Assembly: GCA_022113835.1 (NCBI GenBank)
Contig: JAILWY010000028.1
Coordinates: forward strand, 3,534,001 to 3,598,000
From: Atopsyche davidsoni
Taxonomy: Eukaryota; Arthropoda; Insecta; Trichoptera; Hydrobiosidae
Reading direction: 5' to 3'
Length of the DNA: 64,000 bases
How positions within the stretch are numbered: the stretch's first letter is position 1; each line of letters starts with the position of its first letter. A program made the translations under genes and the position numbers. Positions 14,098 to 49,291 of the stretch are shown piece by piece. The notes under the pieces were generated by a model. That model saw only the letters and a list, made by a program, of their open reading frames with translations. It searched no databases and was not told where the DNA came from.

Positions 14098-17000
14098 ATG
14101 GAACGCGGGCACCCGGAGCCTCCGCACAGAGAGCAGCGTGAGCCCCCACGCCCGCACGAACACTCTGGTGTCACCTCGGAGCGGCTGCGGCCGCCGCCCG
14201 CCGATCTCGCCTTGCCTGCCGCTTTTCTAGGCGTAACTTTGCTCGGCATCGCCTTTGTGCTACTCATCCTCGTGATCTGGCTGCGCGCCCACTTCTCCGC
14301 AAGCCATCAACATGCCAGACGCAAGGCCCGGCCGCTCCAGCGCGGCGCCCAGATGAACAGGGACCCTGACTTTCAGATCATTGTAGACAACGCACCTGAC
14401 GACGCCAAGAAAGACGACTTCGAGTTCCGGCTGCCTGACATTCTCACCGACACTGATCTGAAGTACATTGACGAATTCGAAGGAAGCAGGAATGAGAGTC
14501 CACCCGTTTTGAAGATGAAAAAGAACGGTGGATCCAGCCCGAAGACCTTGGGAAATCCTGACAATGATGGAAAAAGCGATGACAACTCCACCCCATCGAG
14601 TGCCCCGAGAAGGTCGGATACGGAGTTTCCGTTTCCTCCTGAAGACGGGGCTGGAACATCGCGGAGCCGTAGAGCCTTAGACTCCGTCGAACTAGCTGTG
14701 TCTCTGCCCGAGCAGCGGTGGATATCTTATCCTGAGCCTCCCCTAGATTGGAGAGGATACAGTATTAACATTCCTAAAGTGTTTGGGTCGATGGGAGCAA
14801 TGGAGCCTAGCTCTGGAACGGATGCAGCAGTTCTAGGAGGGTCTCTGAATAGATACAGCACTGCAAGGTCACCATCACTGGAAAATGATAACAAAACCCC
14901 TTTTTATAGTGCTAGATGCGAATCTCCTCCGGAATTTACATTCGAAACTAACGTATCTGAAAAACCAGTAGATAATTCGAATGGCAGTCATACTAGCACC
15001 CTTACAGAAGTCAGGGTGCAACCTTCTCATCGATCAGTCTTCGATCTGAGAAGTGAAAGCGACAATTCCCAATCTAAGCGAGATAAGACGTGTAAATCTC
15101 CCGATCCCAAAAACGAACGACAAACAAACGAGAAGGAGAAGATCGGCAGGCGTCCAGGTGGATTAAGTTCTGACCTTCGCGTTACCACAGTTAATGAAAA
15201 TTTTAATCAAAATGTCAACACCGAGAGAGCGGAGATTCAGTATTCCCCAAGACTTGTGGACGCAACACCGGGAAAAGAAAATGTTCAGAGTCCTCGTTTT
15301 TCATTCTCTCCCAAATTTTTTGCAACACCAGATTCTAAATCTCCTAAATTTTTTGGCACTCCCGATCAGAAGTCCCCAAAATTTTTTGGGACTCCTGAGC
15401 AAAGGTCCCCCAGCTTCTTTGCGGAGAATCGCAGTCGGACCGCCTCACCCAGAACTTTCAGCATGGAGAAGCCCAACTCTCCCCGACTGTCCAGCGCATC
15501 TAGCTACAAAAGCCTCCGAAGTCCACTTCTCCTCAGCAACACAAATGGGGATTATTTTAAATTCGAAACCGCAGACAGTGCTGTTCACAATGACAATGAT
15601 GTGCACAATCCGTGCGATGAAGTTGACAATGTATTCGTTAGTAAAATAACTGATTATGACTATGTTGAGGGTGACGATCGTACAGATCTATGCAACGAAA
15701 AGACTGACTTAGAAAAATTGCTTCACGAGTGTGTTATTAGTGATCCTATTTTCCCGGACGACCGGAATGAAGATAAGCTCCTTAATAATATAACTCGCAA
15801 TGAGTCTGCTGCCTCCTCGCTATGTAAGCCCCAGTCCAGACGAGGGAGACTCATTCTGTCACGAGAAAACTCAATGAGACACGATGATGACGTTGACGAA
15901 GAGAATGACAATAAGACTGAAACCCATCAAATTACAGCTGCCGATCTTGCCTGCGATGTCACTGTAACTCCGGATATTTTGAAAATTGAAACAGACAGAA
16001 TAGAAAACAAAAACTCACTCACCAACAGGGAGGAGAGTCAGGACAATTTGGTAATCCCTACCTCGGGAAGTACTGCCAATTACCGACGTCAGAGACTCAA
16101 GTCCATATCTCTGGATTCAGACAATGCCAAGTTTATCGAGCAAAATCTTGGAATTCCGATTGTGAAACATCTAAGACAGGAGAATCTGTACGATATGCAC
16201 CGGGAGGATGACAAGACTTCTGTGTCCAGCTCGTATGAAGCCGATGAGAACATTGAGTACAGTAGAGATGCCACTCCTCCTCTCGTAGTTCGCAAAGATA
16301 CTTATTTCAAATTCGGAGATGATCAAAATGATGTTTACACAAAGTTTGATAATGGAAACAGCATTTCCGACTGTGTCAACCAAGCCATCACCGACATCGT
16401 GCAGAGTGACGACATGAGAGCTTCTCCTGATATCGCTTCTCCTTTGAAGTTCTTAAGAGATAATTCGTCTGCCATAGCTTTTAGTGAAATGCAACCGAGA
16501 TTTTCTCCCAAAGAATTTGAAGCGATTAGTTCTAATGAAAGCAGGTTAAAAGTGAACAAAAATATCCGAAATTTGACCATCGATCTTAACAAAAGAGATG
16601 CCGATCTTGAAAAAGACCTTCTCGAATATGACTGCATAGATTCCGCCACTGAAAAACGCATGACTCCTAAAACGCCAACGTTAAAAGTGAAAGCAACTTC
16701 CTTGGACTCGTCGGAAACGTTGAATTTATCGTTACCTCAACAAAATAACTTGCAAGTTCCTCAAAATTCCATATCTGTTCCGAACACGCCAAAAAGGCAA
16801 CTAAAAAGAGCGTTAAGTCAAAAGTCAGGGAAATTAGTCAAGTCCAGTCATTACAGCGCAGGCAACTGCGGATCCAACCTTCACGAGATTGCCTCGAGAG
16901 GGTGCCCTGAATCTCAGCAAAGAAAGTTATATATGAACGTTAAGTGTCCAGCCAACTTTATCGATAGCGGCATATTTTTAAGAGAAAACCATGCTAACTT

Positions 17001-20000
17001 AATGCTTTTCCAAGCTTCTAAGTATCCTCTGAGCAGAAGCTGCAATTCAAACTCTTCTAATTTCAGTCGTCGTATGGGATCATTTGATGAAAACATGGTG
17101 GACCTTGCCGAGTCTGGTGGCCAGACATTGACAAACAAGGAATTCACAGAAAACAGATTGAGCTTACCTCACAAAGGCCTGGAAGGAAATCTTCTGGGAT
17201 CCAATCTGCTCGGTTTCAAACAGAACCTCAGCGTTTCCAGTACCAACTTAAAGACCCTGCCAGAAGGTGTGCCCTCAAATGATTTTGGAACGCAGGCTAA
17301 CGAGAAGACTTCAAAACGAACATTGCTACAGCGACGAGGTTCCAATCAGAGCCTTACCATAAACCTAGAAGCTACCGGTTGCAATTTGAAATATTCAACG
17401 CTAAGTTTACAAGGTTCCAATCTGTCCCTCGCGAGCTTCGGAGCCTCCAGCCTAAATTTGAACAATATAAAAAATAGCGCATCAAACTTCAGTTTGAATA
17501 CAGATAATAGACATAAGAAAAATATATTAGAACGTAGGAATTCTAATACTTCACTCACATTGAATCTCGACTGCTCATCGCAGCATGGTAGAATTCATCC
17601 TGGATCCAATTGCAACTTACAAACTTCACACTTGAGCCTCGCCAGTCAGGATGTGCAAAATGTTGCGCCGAGTAAAAAGTGTCTCTTGCAGAGGAGAGGG
17701 TCAAACACCAGCTTGACTCTTAACCTGCAAGGTTCCTCTGCATCCAATCTCAGCAGGTGCACAAGCAACAGTTCCTTGAATATACACACCGAAGGAAAAG
17801 TCACTCAAAAGAAAGGACTTTTAGAAAGAAGGAGTTCAAATACCTCGCTGACCCTCAATATCAATGCACCGCACTCTCAATTTGATAGTAACCGAGTACT
17901 GAGTGTTTCCAACTATAACCTTGACGGGGGTTCCGGTCTCAGTCGGTATAACAGTAACCAGAGCATCAACAATACCGGAGAGCATCACAAGAAAGGCTTA
18001 CTAGAACGGAGAAGTTCAAATACGTCCTTAACCCTCAATCTGAACTCTTCCAATTATAATCTTCAAGGCTCCAGCTCAGAAGTGCAAGTGCCCAGAGATA
18101 TAGAAATCGATGACACCCTTGTGCAAGGGAATCTAAGTAATTACGAAGATGTAGCCCACGGAAACCAACAGAAAGAAAAACACCGCAAATCTCTGAGTAC
18201 GGAAAATCTATTCCCAAAATCTTACAAGTCAAGAACAATATGTAAAAATTCTGATAGTATGTATTCTTTCGGATCCCACGATAATCTGTGGTCTAATTCT
18301 TATGCACTTGATTTTATTGAGAACGTGGATATTGCTGGAGGGCAAAACTTGACTTACATATGTGGCGATCAGGAAAACGAGATGATTTACGCCTTTGGTG
18401 CTCGGCAGCACATTGAGAATGTCGGATTCCAGGATTCAGTTCCCATAAGGAATATCACAACAAAGCCACTGAGTCCTCTTTCCACATCGGAAGACTTCAA
18501 GGTGTACTTGGCAAACATTCATCATCTCCAAAATGCCTCAAACGTACTATCCCGACAGCAACTCAAAGACTTGAACTCCGTATTCCAGGATGGATATTCC
18601 AAAGTAGATAACCCGTTGACCGGCAAAAAATCTCCAACTGATGTGTTAAGTGCGCACATTTCAAGTTTGACACTGGACAAAGGTTCGACTGATGACATTT
18701 TGAACGAAGGCGAGTACAACCCGCAACGTCTGCTACCAGAACCGGTGCTGCCGTGCCCTGAGTATCAGAAGGCCCTTCTGAGAAATCTACACCAGGAATT
18801 TTGGGACCTGCCTACCAATTTCCAAGAGAAGCCTATGGTGTTCGGCTCCCACCCCAAGAACAGATACAAGACCATTCTGCCCAATGAACATTCCAGAGTT
18901 ATTTTAAGAGCCGAGGTCGGAGAAACGGACGAGGGCTACATCAATGCCAATTACATTAAGGTATATAATTTTTATTTTTTGCAATACCTTTTTCTAAATT
19001 AACAACAGCAAATATACCTTTAGTAAATTGTTTGTAATGTACATGGTGTAAATATCATTTCAGGGCCACGAATACACCAAGAATTGTTTCATAGCCACTC
19101 AAGGACCTCTTCAAAACACCATCTATGACTTCTGGCTGATGATTTATCAGAATAGTTGCCAATTTCAAAAGGACAACCATGTCAGTACGAACGAAGATCG
19201 TCACTTTGGATCAACCCAAGCTAGAGATAAGAACTTCACTAGTAAAGAGAGAAGTGATGCACCTCGAAATGGTATCCAAAAAATTGTAATGCTCACCAAT
19301 TTTATTGAAAACGGCCGACAGAAGTGCGAAAAGTACTTCCCGCTCGAGATCGACGAGGAGATAGTATTTAAACAGTTACCGAATTCCTGTTACTCTTCAG
19401 CGTGCAGCGCAGGAAACTTTTTCTTCGACAGTGGTAGCACTGCTGGAGATTCAAAGTCGGAAAATCTAAACGCAAATTACTTTAGAATTAAGAATATAGG
19501 AGTGTTAAATAAGACGGGTTATACGGTTAGGAAACTATCAGTTGAATATAGTAATAAGCTCTTGACGAAACTAAGTAAATCCAATTCTGCATCAGATAGT
19601 GCCAATGCTGACGATGTGAAAAGTGACAACTTGAGAATCATTGTTGACAAGCCTAGTGACATCGGAGAACGGTGTCCAGGTGAACAAATACCAAAGAACA
19701 CAGGGAAGCATGAAGAAAAATTGGAATCCAGTGCGGATTCTTTGGTGGTTTATCATTATTGGTTTGACAATTGGGCCGATCACAAATGCCCGAAGGACGT
19801 AACGGCTCTTTTGGAATTGAGTTTAGATGTCTTGCAGAATTGCCAATATAGCTTTGAAAGAAAAGCCGAAGAAGCTGTAGAGATCGCCGCGCAGCAGCAC
19901 GCTGGCCTGCTGTCTGTTAAAGCCAAGAGCTTCGACAAACCCGAAAGCCCGTCCAATAATGCACACAAAGTAGATAAATCTCTAACTTACTTCGACTTCT

Positions 20001-20599
20001 CATCTTTCACAAAAGAAGCGGAACCCAAGGTGGGAAATATTGACATAGAAATACCTCAAGAAAGGCGCCTCTCTGCTTTTCAACTTGCCAAAGCTTTCTT
20101 CGACGGAGCCACCAGAGCAAACTGCCCGGAAGAATCTCTAAAACCCAGCCGAAAAAATTCCTTAGCGAGTAGATTGGACTTGCCGAAGCGCATTGACCAG
20201 GGGGTCAGACGAGAATCTACGGGAAGAATCGACTCTTCCAAGCGCACCACAAAAACACCACAAAACACGGACGGCTTTGCAAAGAAATTAAAAATTGAGG
20301 AAGAAGCGAAAAGGGCAACTAAAATTAATCCCCACTCGGGTTATGATATTCTGAAAAGTTGCAAAGAGATGCCTCCTATCGTAGTTCACTGCTCGGCGGG
20401 CATAGGGAGGACCGGGTGCCTCATAGCCATCTTGAACGGCATCCGTCAGCTCAAGATGGACCAGCGGGTGGATATTTTGGGGATCGTGTGCAATATGAGA
20501 TTCCATAGAGGCGGCATGGTGCAAAATTCTGAACAATACGAATTGATACACAAAGTCTTATGTCTCTATGAGAACACCGGGTTGCCGGGAGTGGACTGA
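14098..20599 (+). CDS. PTP-ER: PTP-ER-like MAP-kinase protein tyrosine phosphatase with five docking motifs
   Basis: Two coding exons, 14098-18960 and 19064-20599, join in phase 0 to give 2132 aa. The ATG has a good context (GAGCCATGG) 17 nt after a splice acceptor. Residues 38-63 form a hydrophobic membrane segment followed by basic residues, so the bulk is probably cytosolic. A long low-complexity Ser/Asn-rich region follows. It holds SPKFFGTP repeats (about 398-443) and five kinase-interaction motifs (1076-1315) of the type RRxSNxSLTLNL, known from PTPRR, STEP and HePTP as ERK/p38 docking sites. The catalytic domain starts near 1560 with EFWDLP and KNRYKTILPNEHSRV. It contains GYINANYIK, the P-loop HCSAGIGRTG (Cys2064, Arg2070) and the Q-loop QNSEQY. 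The general-acid loop reads WAD (1858-1860) instead of WPD. Three insertions interrupt the domain; about 206 residues separate WAD from the catalytic Cys, against about 35 normally. Drosophila PTP-ER, which dampens Ras/ERK signalling, also has an interrupted domain. The PTP-ER assignment is by motif and architecture. Confidence 0.85.
15289..15425 (+). repeat. Intragenic SP-x-FF-x-TP repeats in the phosphatase
   Basis: Three consecutive units, SPKFFATPDSK, SPKFFGTPDQK and SPKFFGTPEQR, are flanked by degenerate SPRFSF and SPSFFAE units. Each good unit offers an SP and a TP site, the minimal target of proline-directed kinases such as MAP kinases, next to an aromatic pair. The phospho-site function is inference; the repetition is seen directly. 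Confidence 0.85.
17323..18042 (+). repeat. Five tandem kinase-interaction motifs (KIM) in the phosphatase
   Basis: The copies are LLQRRGSNQSLTINL (17323-17367), ILERRNSNTSLTLNL (17524-17568), LLQRRGSNTSLTLNL (17683-17727), LLERRSSNTSLTLNI (17818-17862) and LLERRSSNTSLTLNL (17998-18042), spaced 45-67 residues apart. All keep the Arg pair, the Ser of the RRxS protein-kinase-A site and the alternating hydrophobic tail. Mammalian PTPRR, STEP and HePTP have one such motif each. Confidence 0.9.
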
Positions 20600-46189: not shown

Positions 46190-48169
46190 ATGAATTCCAA
46201 AGTCTCTAAGTGGTGTGCAGTACCTCAGTGTACAAACACTTCGATAGTAACACCCAACAAGATGTTTATATATGTTCCAAATAAAAAAATAATAAGAGAT
46301 AAGTGGTTTAAGCTCGCACGGCGAAACCCGAAAGACGTAGTCACGAATTCATCAATTTATTTCTGTGAAGACCACTTTGATGTGAGTATGTATTATATAT
46401 TGATAGATTTTACATTTAAAATGTTTGTTTGACTCGAAATAGTTGAAATATTGAGGCTATGGAATAACTAATTTATTGAGGTTATGTTTGTTTTGGTCTT
46501 TGTTATCATTCGTAATATCAATTTTTATTGTTTACTTTTCTTTTTCCAGTTGCCAAATGACATGAAAAATTATATGGAGTATCATGTGATGGGGTCGGTA
46601 TCACAAGTACGTATGAAACCAGGATGCATGCCCAAAAAATTTATATGCCAACCAGACAGGACAAAACGAACATCTGACACAACAGAGCGACCCTATATAG
46701 CTGAGAAACGAAGGATGATGACTCTTCAAGAGTGTGAAAAGCATTTTGAAGAAAAAAGTATAGTTACAGAACAATCAGGTTCTGAAGAAATTGCATCCGG
46801 TAGTTCAGGTATATATTTTATTAACTAATTTATTAGAATATAGCATTGTAAAAGTTAATTTTATTCTCATTATTATTTTATACATTGTTGGTATACTCAA
46901 AACTAATTGATTTAAAACATTTGTTTTACAGTTCAGCAGAATATTGAAGAAGTTCCCCAATTAACTCCAAGAGTATTGGACAAATCAATTCAAGTAAACA
47001 TATGTAAAAAATTTAGAAGTAAAGCTAATCAAGCACAAGTCAGTACGGTAAATGTGATGACATCACCATTGAAGCCGTTTCTACATTCTGTCTCTACATC
47101 ACCATTTAAAATCAAGCATAGTGGTAATAGTAACCCATCAAGATCAAGTGTAAATGTTTTAAGTAAGACAGGTAAAAAAATAGAACAATCAGATAGTGAT
47201 ACTTCTTATACTCCCTCTTCAACTCGCACAGAATCACCAATATCCATAAAATCTCTTCAAATGGAGTCTACATCTGACTGTAGCGAGATGATAGAGGATG
47301 ACAAAAGGAGAGAAGCTTTAAATGCTTTAGAGTGTACCTTGAAGAAAATTAAAAAAACTCCCTTTTCTTATATTGGCATTCCTTTAAGTTGTTATTTCTT
47401 AGTTAACTTGATTCAAAAACATACAAATATACCGTTAAACCATATTTTACTATGTCTAAAAAAAATTAGATTAAATAATTCATTCCGTGAACTTGCTGAT
47501 GACTTTGGCATTGATAGAACTTATCCAAGCAAAATTTTTTTAAAAAATATACCTATTATAGCAAGTATAATGCGTCCTTTTATTGTATCATTAGATAAGG
47601 AATTGATTAAAAAAACTTTGCCCATTGCCTTTAGGCATAAATACAATAAGGTGACTTGTATAATAGACTGTTTAGAGATTGAAATACAAAAGCCTTCAAA
47701 GGCTTTAGATCAAGCTCTTACCTGGTCTGATTACAAGAAAGCCAACACAATTAAGTACCTTATATCTTATACACCTAATGGTTTGGTAAACTATATTTCA
47801 AATGGTTATGGAGGCCAAATAACAGACACATGCATTGTTGAAATATCTGACTTTTCAAAATGTTTGCAAACCAATATGTGGGTCATGGCAGATAGAGGAT
47901 TTAAGGATGTGGAAGTGTATTTAAGAAAAACGGGTGTGCTGTTAGTACGGCCTCCAAGTGTTGTATCTGGAGCTAAGTTATCTAAAGCTCAAGCAACAGA
48001 AACAAAACAAATAGCTAGCTTACGAAATTACGTTGAGCGGATGAGAAGACGGTTACTTGAATTCAACATATTAAAACCACATGTCTGTCTTAGCTTAAGT
48101 TTGGTTAAAGTTATTGATGATGTGATAACTATAGCTTGTGGTTTGATTAATATACAAGATTCTCTTTAA
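46190..48169 (+). CDS. THAP-domain DDE transposase of the ISL2EU element (intact)
   Basis: Three exons, 46190-46381, 46550-46808 and 46932-48169, give 562 aa with matching phases. Residues 1-64 are a THAP zinc finger: WCAVPQC, then C-x2-H in FCEDHF, with KWFKLARR between. A charged, Ser-rich linker follows. A helix-turn-helix segment (SFRELADDFGIDRTYPSKIFL, about 335-355) precedes the DDE nuclease. The acidic residues are D396 (CIIDCLEI), D471 (WVMADRGF) and E519 (NYVERMRRRL). The DDE_4/HARBI-like order YTPNG, ISNGYGGQITD and LLVRPP is also present. The frame is open throughout and the triad is complete, so it could be active or domesticated. AATAAA follows the stop directly. Its usual partner gene on the other strand is broken. 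Confidence 0.9.
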
Positions 48170-48202: not shown

Positions 48203-49291
48203 TTATTCTATACTTTTATTTAATAATGGATATACATGGGATTTCCAAAATGTAATAACACTTTCAAGAAAGCCTGACATACATTGTTCATCAAATGATA
48301 TAAATAAAATCTCAACATTTTTACTAGTGGAAAAATTTGGGTCTGCAACTCAAAAGTAACAAATTTTTAGACCACTTAGATACATTTGCATTTGTATCTG
48401 GGTAAAGCATTTTTTTGCTGGGTTTTTCATTTTTTATATAATTGAGATACGTTTTGTTGCTTATAGGACATTCTATCTCCACAATGCTATCTTCACATAT
48501 TCCATCAGGGGAACCTGCTATCATTGGATGTTTTTGGGATATGAAAAGTCCAGTACTCTTGATTTTTTTCCCTAGTTTCTTGCTAACTATTTGTCTTACT
48601 TCATTTTCTAAATATCTTCCCCGATTCATTGCTGGTGTGTCTGGTATCTTCCTCCCCATGATAGTAGAAATCAGAGTCCCATCAGCGGTCTGGCACCGAC
48701 TCACTTCATAAGCTCTAGAAGCTGTTACCCTGCCGTACCTCAGTTCATACCAAAGCTTATTTTTGAACTGGTCCCTGGTTAAATTTTCAATTTCGTTGAT
48801 AAGTCCTGCTGCCAAATTCACTTTACTTAAAAATAAGTCACAGCACTCTTCTTTATATGTAAGCACAAGTTGGTGCATTGAGACACTACGTAGTTTATCA
48901 CTATTATAATCATGATACTTTAGTAGCTCGCAGTTGTTTAGATTCCTCTTTTTTCCTTCTTCTAAAAAATTTTCAAGAACTGCAGTTAGAAGGCAATATA
49001 GGGTTACCTTTAGATAAATCTTCAAGGTAGTGCCAACTCTTGATAGCTTTGATTTCTGCCAGTAACATAGACGCACATAAGCAGCGCTATGGCATGCTTA
49101 CATCCGCCCTGGGCAGCAACACAATCATGGCATTGGATTGATGTTACTTTTTCTTCATCTTCATCAACCATCAATGTTACAGCATATAGTTTTGCATGGA
49201 CTCTGGGCAAATCTTGCATTTCACTGTACAAATGTTTTCTTCCCGTTTTAGTTGTACGTAACTCATTGCATCATCATCTTGAAGACCTGAA
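48203..49291 (-). pseudogene. SWIM zinc finger / YqaJ recombinase-like gene of the ISL2EU element (broken)
   Basis: Reading down the minus strand, an acceptor (TTTCTTTCAG) opens an exon at about 49291 (LQDDDAMSYVQLKREENICTV). The frame then shifts near 49210 into RVHAKLYAVTLMVDEDEEK and the SWIM motif CHDCVAAQGGCKH. It shifts again near 49075, with a deletion, into LCYWQKSKLSRVGT. The YqaJ core WYELRYGRVTASRAYEV ... GSPDGI ... IVEIECP follows. A run of seven A (48410-48416) puts the conserved QIQMQMYLSG out of frame. A TGA at 48350-48352 stands where Cys is usual before VADPNF. The natural end would be the TAA at 48203-48205. At least four lesions make this a pseudogene. In intact elements the protein is thought to act as a recombinase accessory to transposition. 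Confidence 0.85.

Follow-up and report, generated by a model that had tools for sequence, protein, structure and literature searches.

Five tandem KIM-type docking motifs in a probable PTP-ER ortholog of the caddisfly Atopsyche davidsoni: an old array whose copy number varies among insect orders

The window, the whole 64,000-nucleotide stretch of Atopsyche davidsoni DNA that was analysed, contains a two-exon gene on the + strand, where all of the gene's features described below are also read. Exon 1 (14098..18960), delimited by its open frame and a GT-AG splice, with the start codon placed by eye against the database protein P0001, encodes the N-terminus, a membrane-helix-like stretch, a long region without a Pfam match, five KIMs (MAP kinase docking motifs), and the start of the PTP domain. 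The intron (18961..19063) is bounded by the sole in-frame GT-AG pair in the ranges tested, and exon 2 (19064..20599) encodes the rest of the PTP domain together with several large insertions. The spliced product has 2132 residues. Both exons match Pfam PF00102: the Y_phosphatase match at residues 1585-1624 is the only Pfam match of exon 1, and exon 2 is matched in three stretches (1.9e-42). The spliced protein also contains the KNRY and VQNSEQY motifs and an intact PTP signature, HCSAGIGRTG (20387..20416), which fits the HCSAGxGRxG pattern of a classical single PTP domain. Large insertions inside the PTP domain (19064-20599) set NRYK about 476 residues from the catalytic Cys.

Among single-domain PTPs, a PDB search places the catalytic domain nearest PTPRR, PTPN7, and PTPN5. 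The first part of the domain scores 79.4 bits against PTPRR (1jln) and up to 79.0 bits against PTPN7 chains, the top scores among chains of single-domain length; the nine chains that outscore 1jln are 575-627 aa long and are each matched in two stretches, and in the two such alignments shown each stretch alone scores 43.0-58.5 bits. Exon 2 scores 120.4 bits against PTPRR (2a8b), below five chains of 575-599 aa. In one-way searches, the aligning homologs that bear the source name PTP-ER come from Maniola, Battus, Plodia, and Aphomia, and a profile search adds source-named PTP-ER proteins of Drosophila takahashii, D. virilis, and D. busckii. The gene is thus most likely a KIM-type tyrosine phosphatase and the PTP-ER ortholog; a sequence-only reading of this DNA had assigned it to that type, and the Pfam domain, the signature, the PTP-ER-named homologs, and the presence of KIMs upstream of the PTP domain bear the assignment out.

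The membrane-helix-like stretch, AFLGVTLLGIAFVLLILVI (14221..14277; residues 42-60), has a hydropathy peak of 2.98. Similar N-terminal peaks are seen in P0001, in many lower Diptera, and in Lepidoptera: a peak of at least 1.8 occurs within the first 160 residues in 21 of 27 lepidopteran and 18 of 25 lower dipteran proteins. None was found by the same measure in 22 drosophilids, 11 other Cyclorrhapha, or 26 beetles, whose models may lack the first exon. Exon 1 also holds a 33-base tandem repeat (15346-15410) of SPKFFxTPxxK units, which are rich in Ser/Thr-Pro and Phe and are possibly kinase sites.

In the catalytic domain, comparison of the WPD loop shows that it reads WADH (19772..19783), Pro being replaced by Ala and the catalytic Asp kept. 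Among the 119 proteins in which the loop was located, 72 have WPDH and 14 have WQDH; WADH is shared by Atopsyche and 32 others; 25 of these are among the 27 named Lepidoptera, 7 carry no taxon name, and none is a named fly or beetle. The beetle loops that were located and listed read WPDH or WQDH. Because the catalytic Asp remains, PTP activity would still be expected, perhaps at a slower rate. Upstream of the PTP domain lies a segment TKPLSPxSTSEDF...LQNASNVLSRQQLKDL (18460..18573) with an SP site, which is alike in 13 aligned rows; these were picked by a SEDF-like anchor inside the segment, and 8 of the 21 proteins were omitted. By its position and sequence, this segment may be the counterpart of the mammalian kinase-specificity sequence (KIS), although the distance of the LQNASNVLSRQQL segment and its SP site, between the KIMs and the PTP domain, is unlike that of the mammalian KIS.

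The five KIMs are exact matches to [LI][QE]RRxSNxSLT[LI] in one open frame, at residues 1077, 1144, 1197, 1242, and 1302. Their 16-residue cores, each identified by pattern, profile, and residue check, are copy 1, TLLQRRGSNQSLTINL (17320..17367); copy 2, NILERRNSNTSLTLNL (17521..17568); copy 3, CLLQRRGSNTSLTLNL (17680..17727); copy 4, GLLERRSSNTSLTLNI (17815..17862); and copy 5, GLLERRSSNTSLTLNL (17995..18042). The cores span residues 1075-1315 and lie in exon 1 only, so whole-exon skipping cannot remove single copies. Successive copies are 67, 53, 45, and 60 residues apart, spacings that a rough chain estimate puts at 50-63 Å, about the width of a kinase. The array is expected to be disordered, and it lies far from the catalytic domain, with 284 residues between the last KIM and NRYK. 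In all six frames of the 64 kb window RRxSNx[SA]L matches these five copies only; within the exon 1 frame the five KIMs hold the only RRxS sites, and two others occur in exon 2. In the model of PTP-SL bound to ERK2, contacts are made by L225, R228, R229, L235, L237, and M239, and S231 is the PKA site (PMC2675061, excerpt). Arg-Arg and the RRxS serine are present in all five copies, and each of the four hydrophobic contact positions is occupied by a hydrophobic residue. Both the number of well-conserved copies and the retention of the Arg pair, the serine, and the hydrophobic tail in each had been claimed from the letters, and the residue check agrees with them.

Chance and low complexity are excluded as the origin of these motifs. 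The expected count of the 12-residue pattern is 8.6e-8 in the open frame and 1.3e-7 with the array region's own composition; in 3000 shuffles of the protein the pattern arose 0 times and the shorter RRxSNxSL 3 times. The five KIMs have profile scores of 44.6-49.9 bits, compared with 16.4 for the best of 300 local-composition shuffles, although the profile was trained on copies from these same families and its scores lean upward. The copies appear to be old duplicates held by selection, a rough estimate from 18 codons a pair. Between copies, 14-29 of the 54 bases in the 18-codon cores differ; dS is undefined (saturated) in 8 of the 10 pairs and is 2.2 and 4.1 in pairs 1-5 and 2-4, and dN is 0.06-0.55, again rough with just 18 codons a pair. 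This amount of synonymous change rules out recent slippage or gene conversion.

Comparison with relatives points the same way. With P0001, the nearest relative, identity is 79/80 in the KIM cores and 131/183 in the linkers, 487/924 in the remaining N-terminus, and 79/85 in the first PTP part. With Manduca, the corresponding values are 61/75, 82/151, 329/761, and 65/81. Thus, the copies are conserved in a close relative, and one of the two refutations named in the sequence-only reading fails.

Shorter fragments of the motif lie between the copies. The linkers contain 6 instances of SNx[SN]L, where 0.17 are expected and none of 5000 shuffles reached as many. Two of the fragments, LSRCTSNSSL after copy 3 (17749..17778) and LSRYNSNQSI after copy 4 (17938..17967), have a single Arg and look like KIM copies that have lost one Arg and the tail. 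Both recur at matching places in aligned Lepidoptera: fragments of the type LSRxxSNxS[LI] follow copies 3 and 4 in Atopsyche, P0001, and the five Lepidoptera listed, and all 27 Lepidoptera have at least one. The fragment after copy 3 also has similar counterparts in lower Diptera, where LNRFNSHSSL or a similar sequence occurs in 8 of 9 proteins examined. The earlier suggestion that degenerate SNxSL fragments reflect repeat expansion gains from both the excess over expectation and the positional recurrence in Lepidoptera.

Copy number was counted in 194 database proteins and the Atopsyche protein with a profile cut-off of 15 bits, which is just under the best shuffle (16.4), so the weakest hits, in two drosophilids (15.0), are uncertain. 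Searching with the array favours multi-copy proteins; the beetles and drosophilids came from a query with the stretch that leads up to the PTP domain and extends into it, and from a ten-row whole-protein profile, which itself contained KIMs and of which the best 120 of 272 proteins were used. Counts are of proteins, a few species being present twice (Lutzomyia longipalpis, Diabrotica virgifera), and the models P0098, P0099, and P0101, which are without all or part of the array, count as 0, 1, and 0.

Among the matches listed, copy number is graded by insect order, as the proposed search for the pattern across PTP-ER orthologs was meant to reveal. At one end stand the named beetle proteins, with 1 profile hit in 26 of 26 among the matches listed. 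Named fly proteins among the matches listed have 2-3 hits in 56 of 58 cases: drosophilids have 3 hits in 22/22, some of them degraded (two canonical copies in 20, one in 2); other Cyclorrhapha have 3 in 11/11 (three canonical in 9, two in 2); and the 25 lower Diptera have 3 hits in 15, 2 in 8, 1 in 1, and 0 in 1 (three canonical in 12, two in 11, one in 1, none in 1), the last two hit classes being models without all or part of the region. Of the 27 lepidopteran proteins among the matches listed, 22 have 5 hits and 5 have 4, with three canonical copies in 26 and two in 1. The 83 listed matches without a taxon name have 0 hits in 1, 1 in 3, 2 in 20, 3 in 36, 4 in 5, and 5 in 18. Five canonical copies were found only in Atopsyche and one relative among the matches listed, and inspection of the listing shows five copies in P0001. 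No protein of Hymenoptera, Hemiptera, or any other order was named among the matches listed.

The multi-copy arrays across flies and Lepidoptera exclude a single-species oddity. Truncated gene models are an unlikely cause of the single copy of beetles in the array region, as LKTLPE lies 30-44 residues before the lone KIM in 26/26. At the 15-bit cut-off, none of the 26 beetles among the matches listed gave a second hit; all but P0129 (25/26) have other RRxS sites, which do not score as KIMs.

A register alignment covered 13 of 21 chosen proteins, the 8 without one or both anchors being left out. In it, Atopsyche copies 1-5 align in order with five lepidopteran positions. No contact is missing from copies 3, 4, or 5 in any of the 27 named Lepidoptera. 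Copy 1 is without at least the first and last hydrophobic positions in 27/27, a Leu standing one residue later than the first, and copy 2 is without at least three of its four hydrophobic positions in the 22 Lepidoptera where the pattern was found and is absent or otherwise written in the other 5. In Drosophila the middle copy has decayed, and in an alignment by eye Diptera appear to hold copies 1, 3, and 4. The simplest history would be one copy before the beetle split, three in the ancestor of flies and moths, five in the ancestor of Atopsyche and Lepidoptera, and then decay of two in Lepidoptera. A tree built from the stretch that leads up to the PTP domain and extends into it (31 rows, 6 of 37 chosen being dropped for a missing anchor) does not settle to which insect order the protein belongs: Atopsyche and P0001 fall between Lepidoptera and Diptera and are not mutual sisters, and the three beetles sit implausibly, on a very long branch. 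It is the five-copy layout and the WADH loop, both shared with Lepidoptera, that point to Trichoptera. Judged by the sequences, the array is an old expansion within the KIM-PTP family, an origin by expansion that had been proposed beforehand and that agrees with the age of the copies, their order-graded number, and the degenerate fragments between them.

What might such an array do? In mammalian KIM-PTPs, the KIM mediates binding to ERK2 and p38, assisted by the KIS and by residues beyond it, and the HePTP KIM peptide alone binds both kinases (PMC3956856, excerpt). Phosphorylation of the KIM serine, S231 in PTP-SL, impairs binding (PMC2675061), and section 9 of PMC4670726 describes a MAP kinase as holding one motif at a time. 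Five sites would then either allow several kinases to be docked together or secure the capture of a single kinase against partial phosphorylation. We consider it probable that this protein is a membrane-anchored ERK/p38 phosphatase in which a single ancestral KIM became five, with several kinases docked or with capture that is robust despite phosphorylation. For the Atopsyche protein itself, we infer kinase binding, stoichiometry, phosphorylation, and membrane location from the sequence. Each KIM would fill the single docking groove of a MAP kinase, and up to five kinases could be held in the flexible cytoplasmic tail; alternatively, one kinase would meet five alternative sites, which would increase its capture and rebinding near the membrane. 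The sequence allows PKA to block docking in all five copies, and since every site brings an RRxS serine of its own, a PKA-like kinase would have to phosphorylate all five for full release of MAP kinase. If a fraction p of sites were phosphorylated independently, the probability of at least one open site would be 1-p^5 rather than 1-p (0.41 versus 0.10 at p=0.9), and inhibition would be buffered or thresholded rather than linear.

Several observations speak against this proposal. Since a kinase has one groove, repeated sites should give no avidity for a monomeric one. The array sits a long way from the catalytic domain, unlike the KIM of PTP-SL with its S240-P254 linker (PMC2675061, excerpt). 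In hNHE1, one D-domain of three provides ERK2 scaffolding, according to an excerpt of PMC4833948, so copies need not be equal. The decay of copies 1 and 2 in Lepidoptera and of the middle copy in Drosophila indicates that the full set is not always needed.

A more elaborate version of the docking proposal, for caddisflies and Lepidoptera, is in our view doubtful. In it, the protein would be a membrane-anchored MAP kinase sink whose loop without the WPD Pro gives slow turnover and whose KIM array holds several kinases; cAMP or another basophilic kinase would open it stepwise, giving a threshold and not a gradient, and evolution would have tuned that threshold through copy number, from 1 in beetles and 2-3 in flies to 3 intact plus 2 decayed in Lepidoptera and 5 in Atopsyche.

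It is also unlikely that the main role of the copies is to be phosphorylation or 14-3-3-type targets of a basophilic kinase (PKA or AMPK/SIK-type), with docking by one or two only. The residues that flank the serine in the insect copies, hydrophobic at -5 and Leu at +4, suit the AMPK/SIK-type consensus; all but 2 of the 583 profile hits (581) retain RRxS, tail-less degraded copies included, though by a profile trained on RRxSN and therefore biased; and both linker fragments keep RxxS, with one Arg only. A phosphosite needs no hydrophobic tail, however, and the L-x-L-x-[LI] tail is present in copies 3-5 of all 27 Lepidoptera and in 5/5 Atopsyche copies. Quite unlikely, too, is sloppy redundancy, by which copies beyond three would be near-neutral extras whose retention or loss is a matter of drift and which serve no graded or multivalent purpose. 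The decays just described would suit it, but copies 1 and 2 are unchanged between Atopsyche and P0001 while 52 of 183 linker sites differ, and the saturation of synonymous change in most pairs of copies also argues against it. Low-complexity Ser/Asn/Leu slippage that merely resembles KIMs is exceedingly improbable, for although the array region is rich in S, N, and L, this composition predicts only 1.3e-7 copies, the best shuffle reaches 16.4 bits against 44.6-49.9, and the KIM cores are conserved in relatives.

The original PTP-ER paper is reportedly that of Karim and Rubin in 1999, on Drosophila. Drosophila PTP-ER is termed a MAPK phosphatase, whose knock-down raises phospho-MAPK (excerpts of PMC3958334 and PMC1761141). 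By homolog names and alignment it is the same gene as in Atopsyche, with the HCSAG and NRYK motifs, and the LKTLPE segment before the KIMs is also found in the one drosophilid examined (P0173). Unlike Atopsyche, the 22 drosophilid proteins (none named D. melanogaster) have one or two canonical KIMs, no membrane-helix-like peak (0/22), and no member among the 33 WADH proteins. Mammalian PTPRR/PTP-SL, PTPN5/STEP, and PTPN7/HePTP resemble the Atopsyche protein in having a KIM with an RRxS serine and a single PTP domain, and PTPRR and STEP61 are membrane-anchored. They have one KIM near the PTP domain (in PTP-SL, residues 224-239 with a linker, 240-254, to the domain; PMC2675061, excerpt), whereas Atopsyche has five, the nearest 284 residues before NRYK.

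Several MAP kinase docking sites in one N-terminal region are also found in MKK7, which has three D-sites (PMC2928751, excerpt). In Atopsyche, unlike MKK7, one KIM has been duplicated within a phosphatase. MKK7 is an activating kinase for JNK, with D-sites of another class. The tail of hNHE1 offers another parallel, since this membrane protein, a transporter and not a phosphatase, holds ERK2 in a disordered tail with three D-domains (PMC4833948, excerpt). The polarity protein hScrib also has more than one KIM for ERK, namely two; the phosphatase proposed for it, PP1 gamma, is a separate protein (PMC3554735, excerpt). Among the open-licence papers listed in the literature searches, none was seen to describe a tyrosine phosphatase with tandem KIMs, though the original PTP-ER paper may mention more than one. 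Queries with the array or with a 21-residue copy retrieved no KIM structure from PDB chains of at least 20 residues; the array query gave one chance-level match, to a ribosomal protein.

It has been called unclear why some proteins have more than one docking motif for a single-groove kinase (Zeke et al. 2015, PMC4670726, section 9). In PTP-ER, related insects provide naturally occurring versions with 1, 2, 3, and 5 near-identical copies, each bearing the same regulatory serine, so the effect of copy number could be measured in one protein background.

Elsewhere in the window, the - strand between 38082 and 53754 has three long open frames (878, 933, and 1286 aa from stop to stop) that look C2H2 zinc finger-like by eye. 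A transposase-like frame with a DDE_Tnp_4 domain lies at 46916-48169, and a YqaJ-like recombinase/exonuclease frame lies at 48324-49097 on the - strand.
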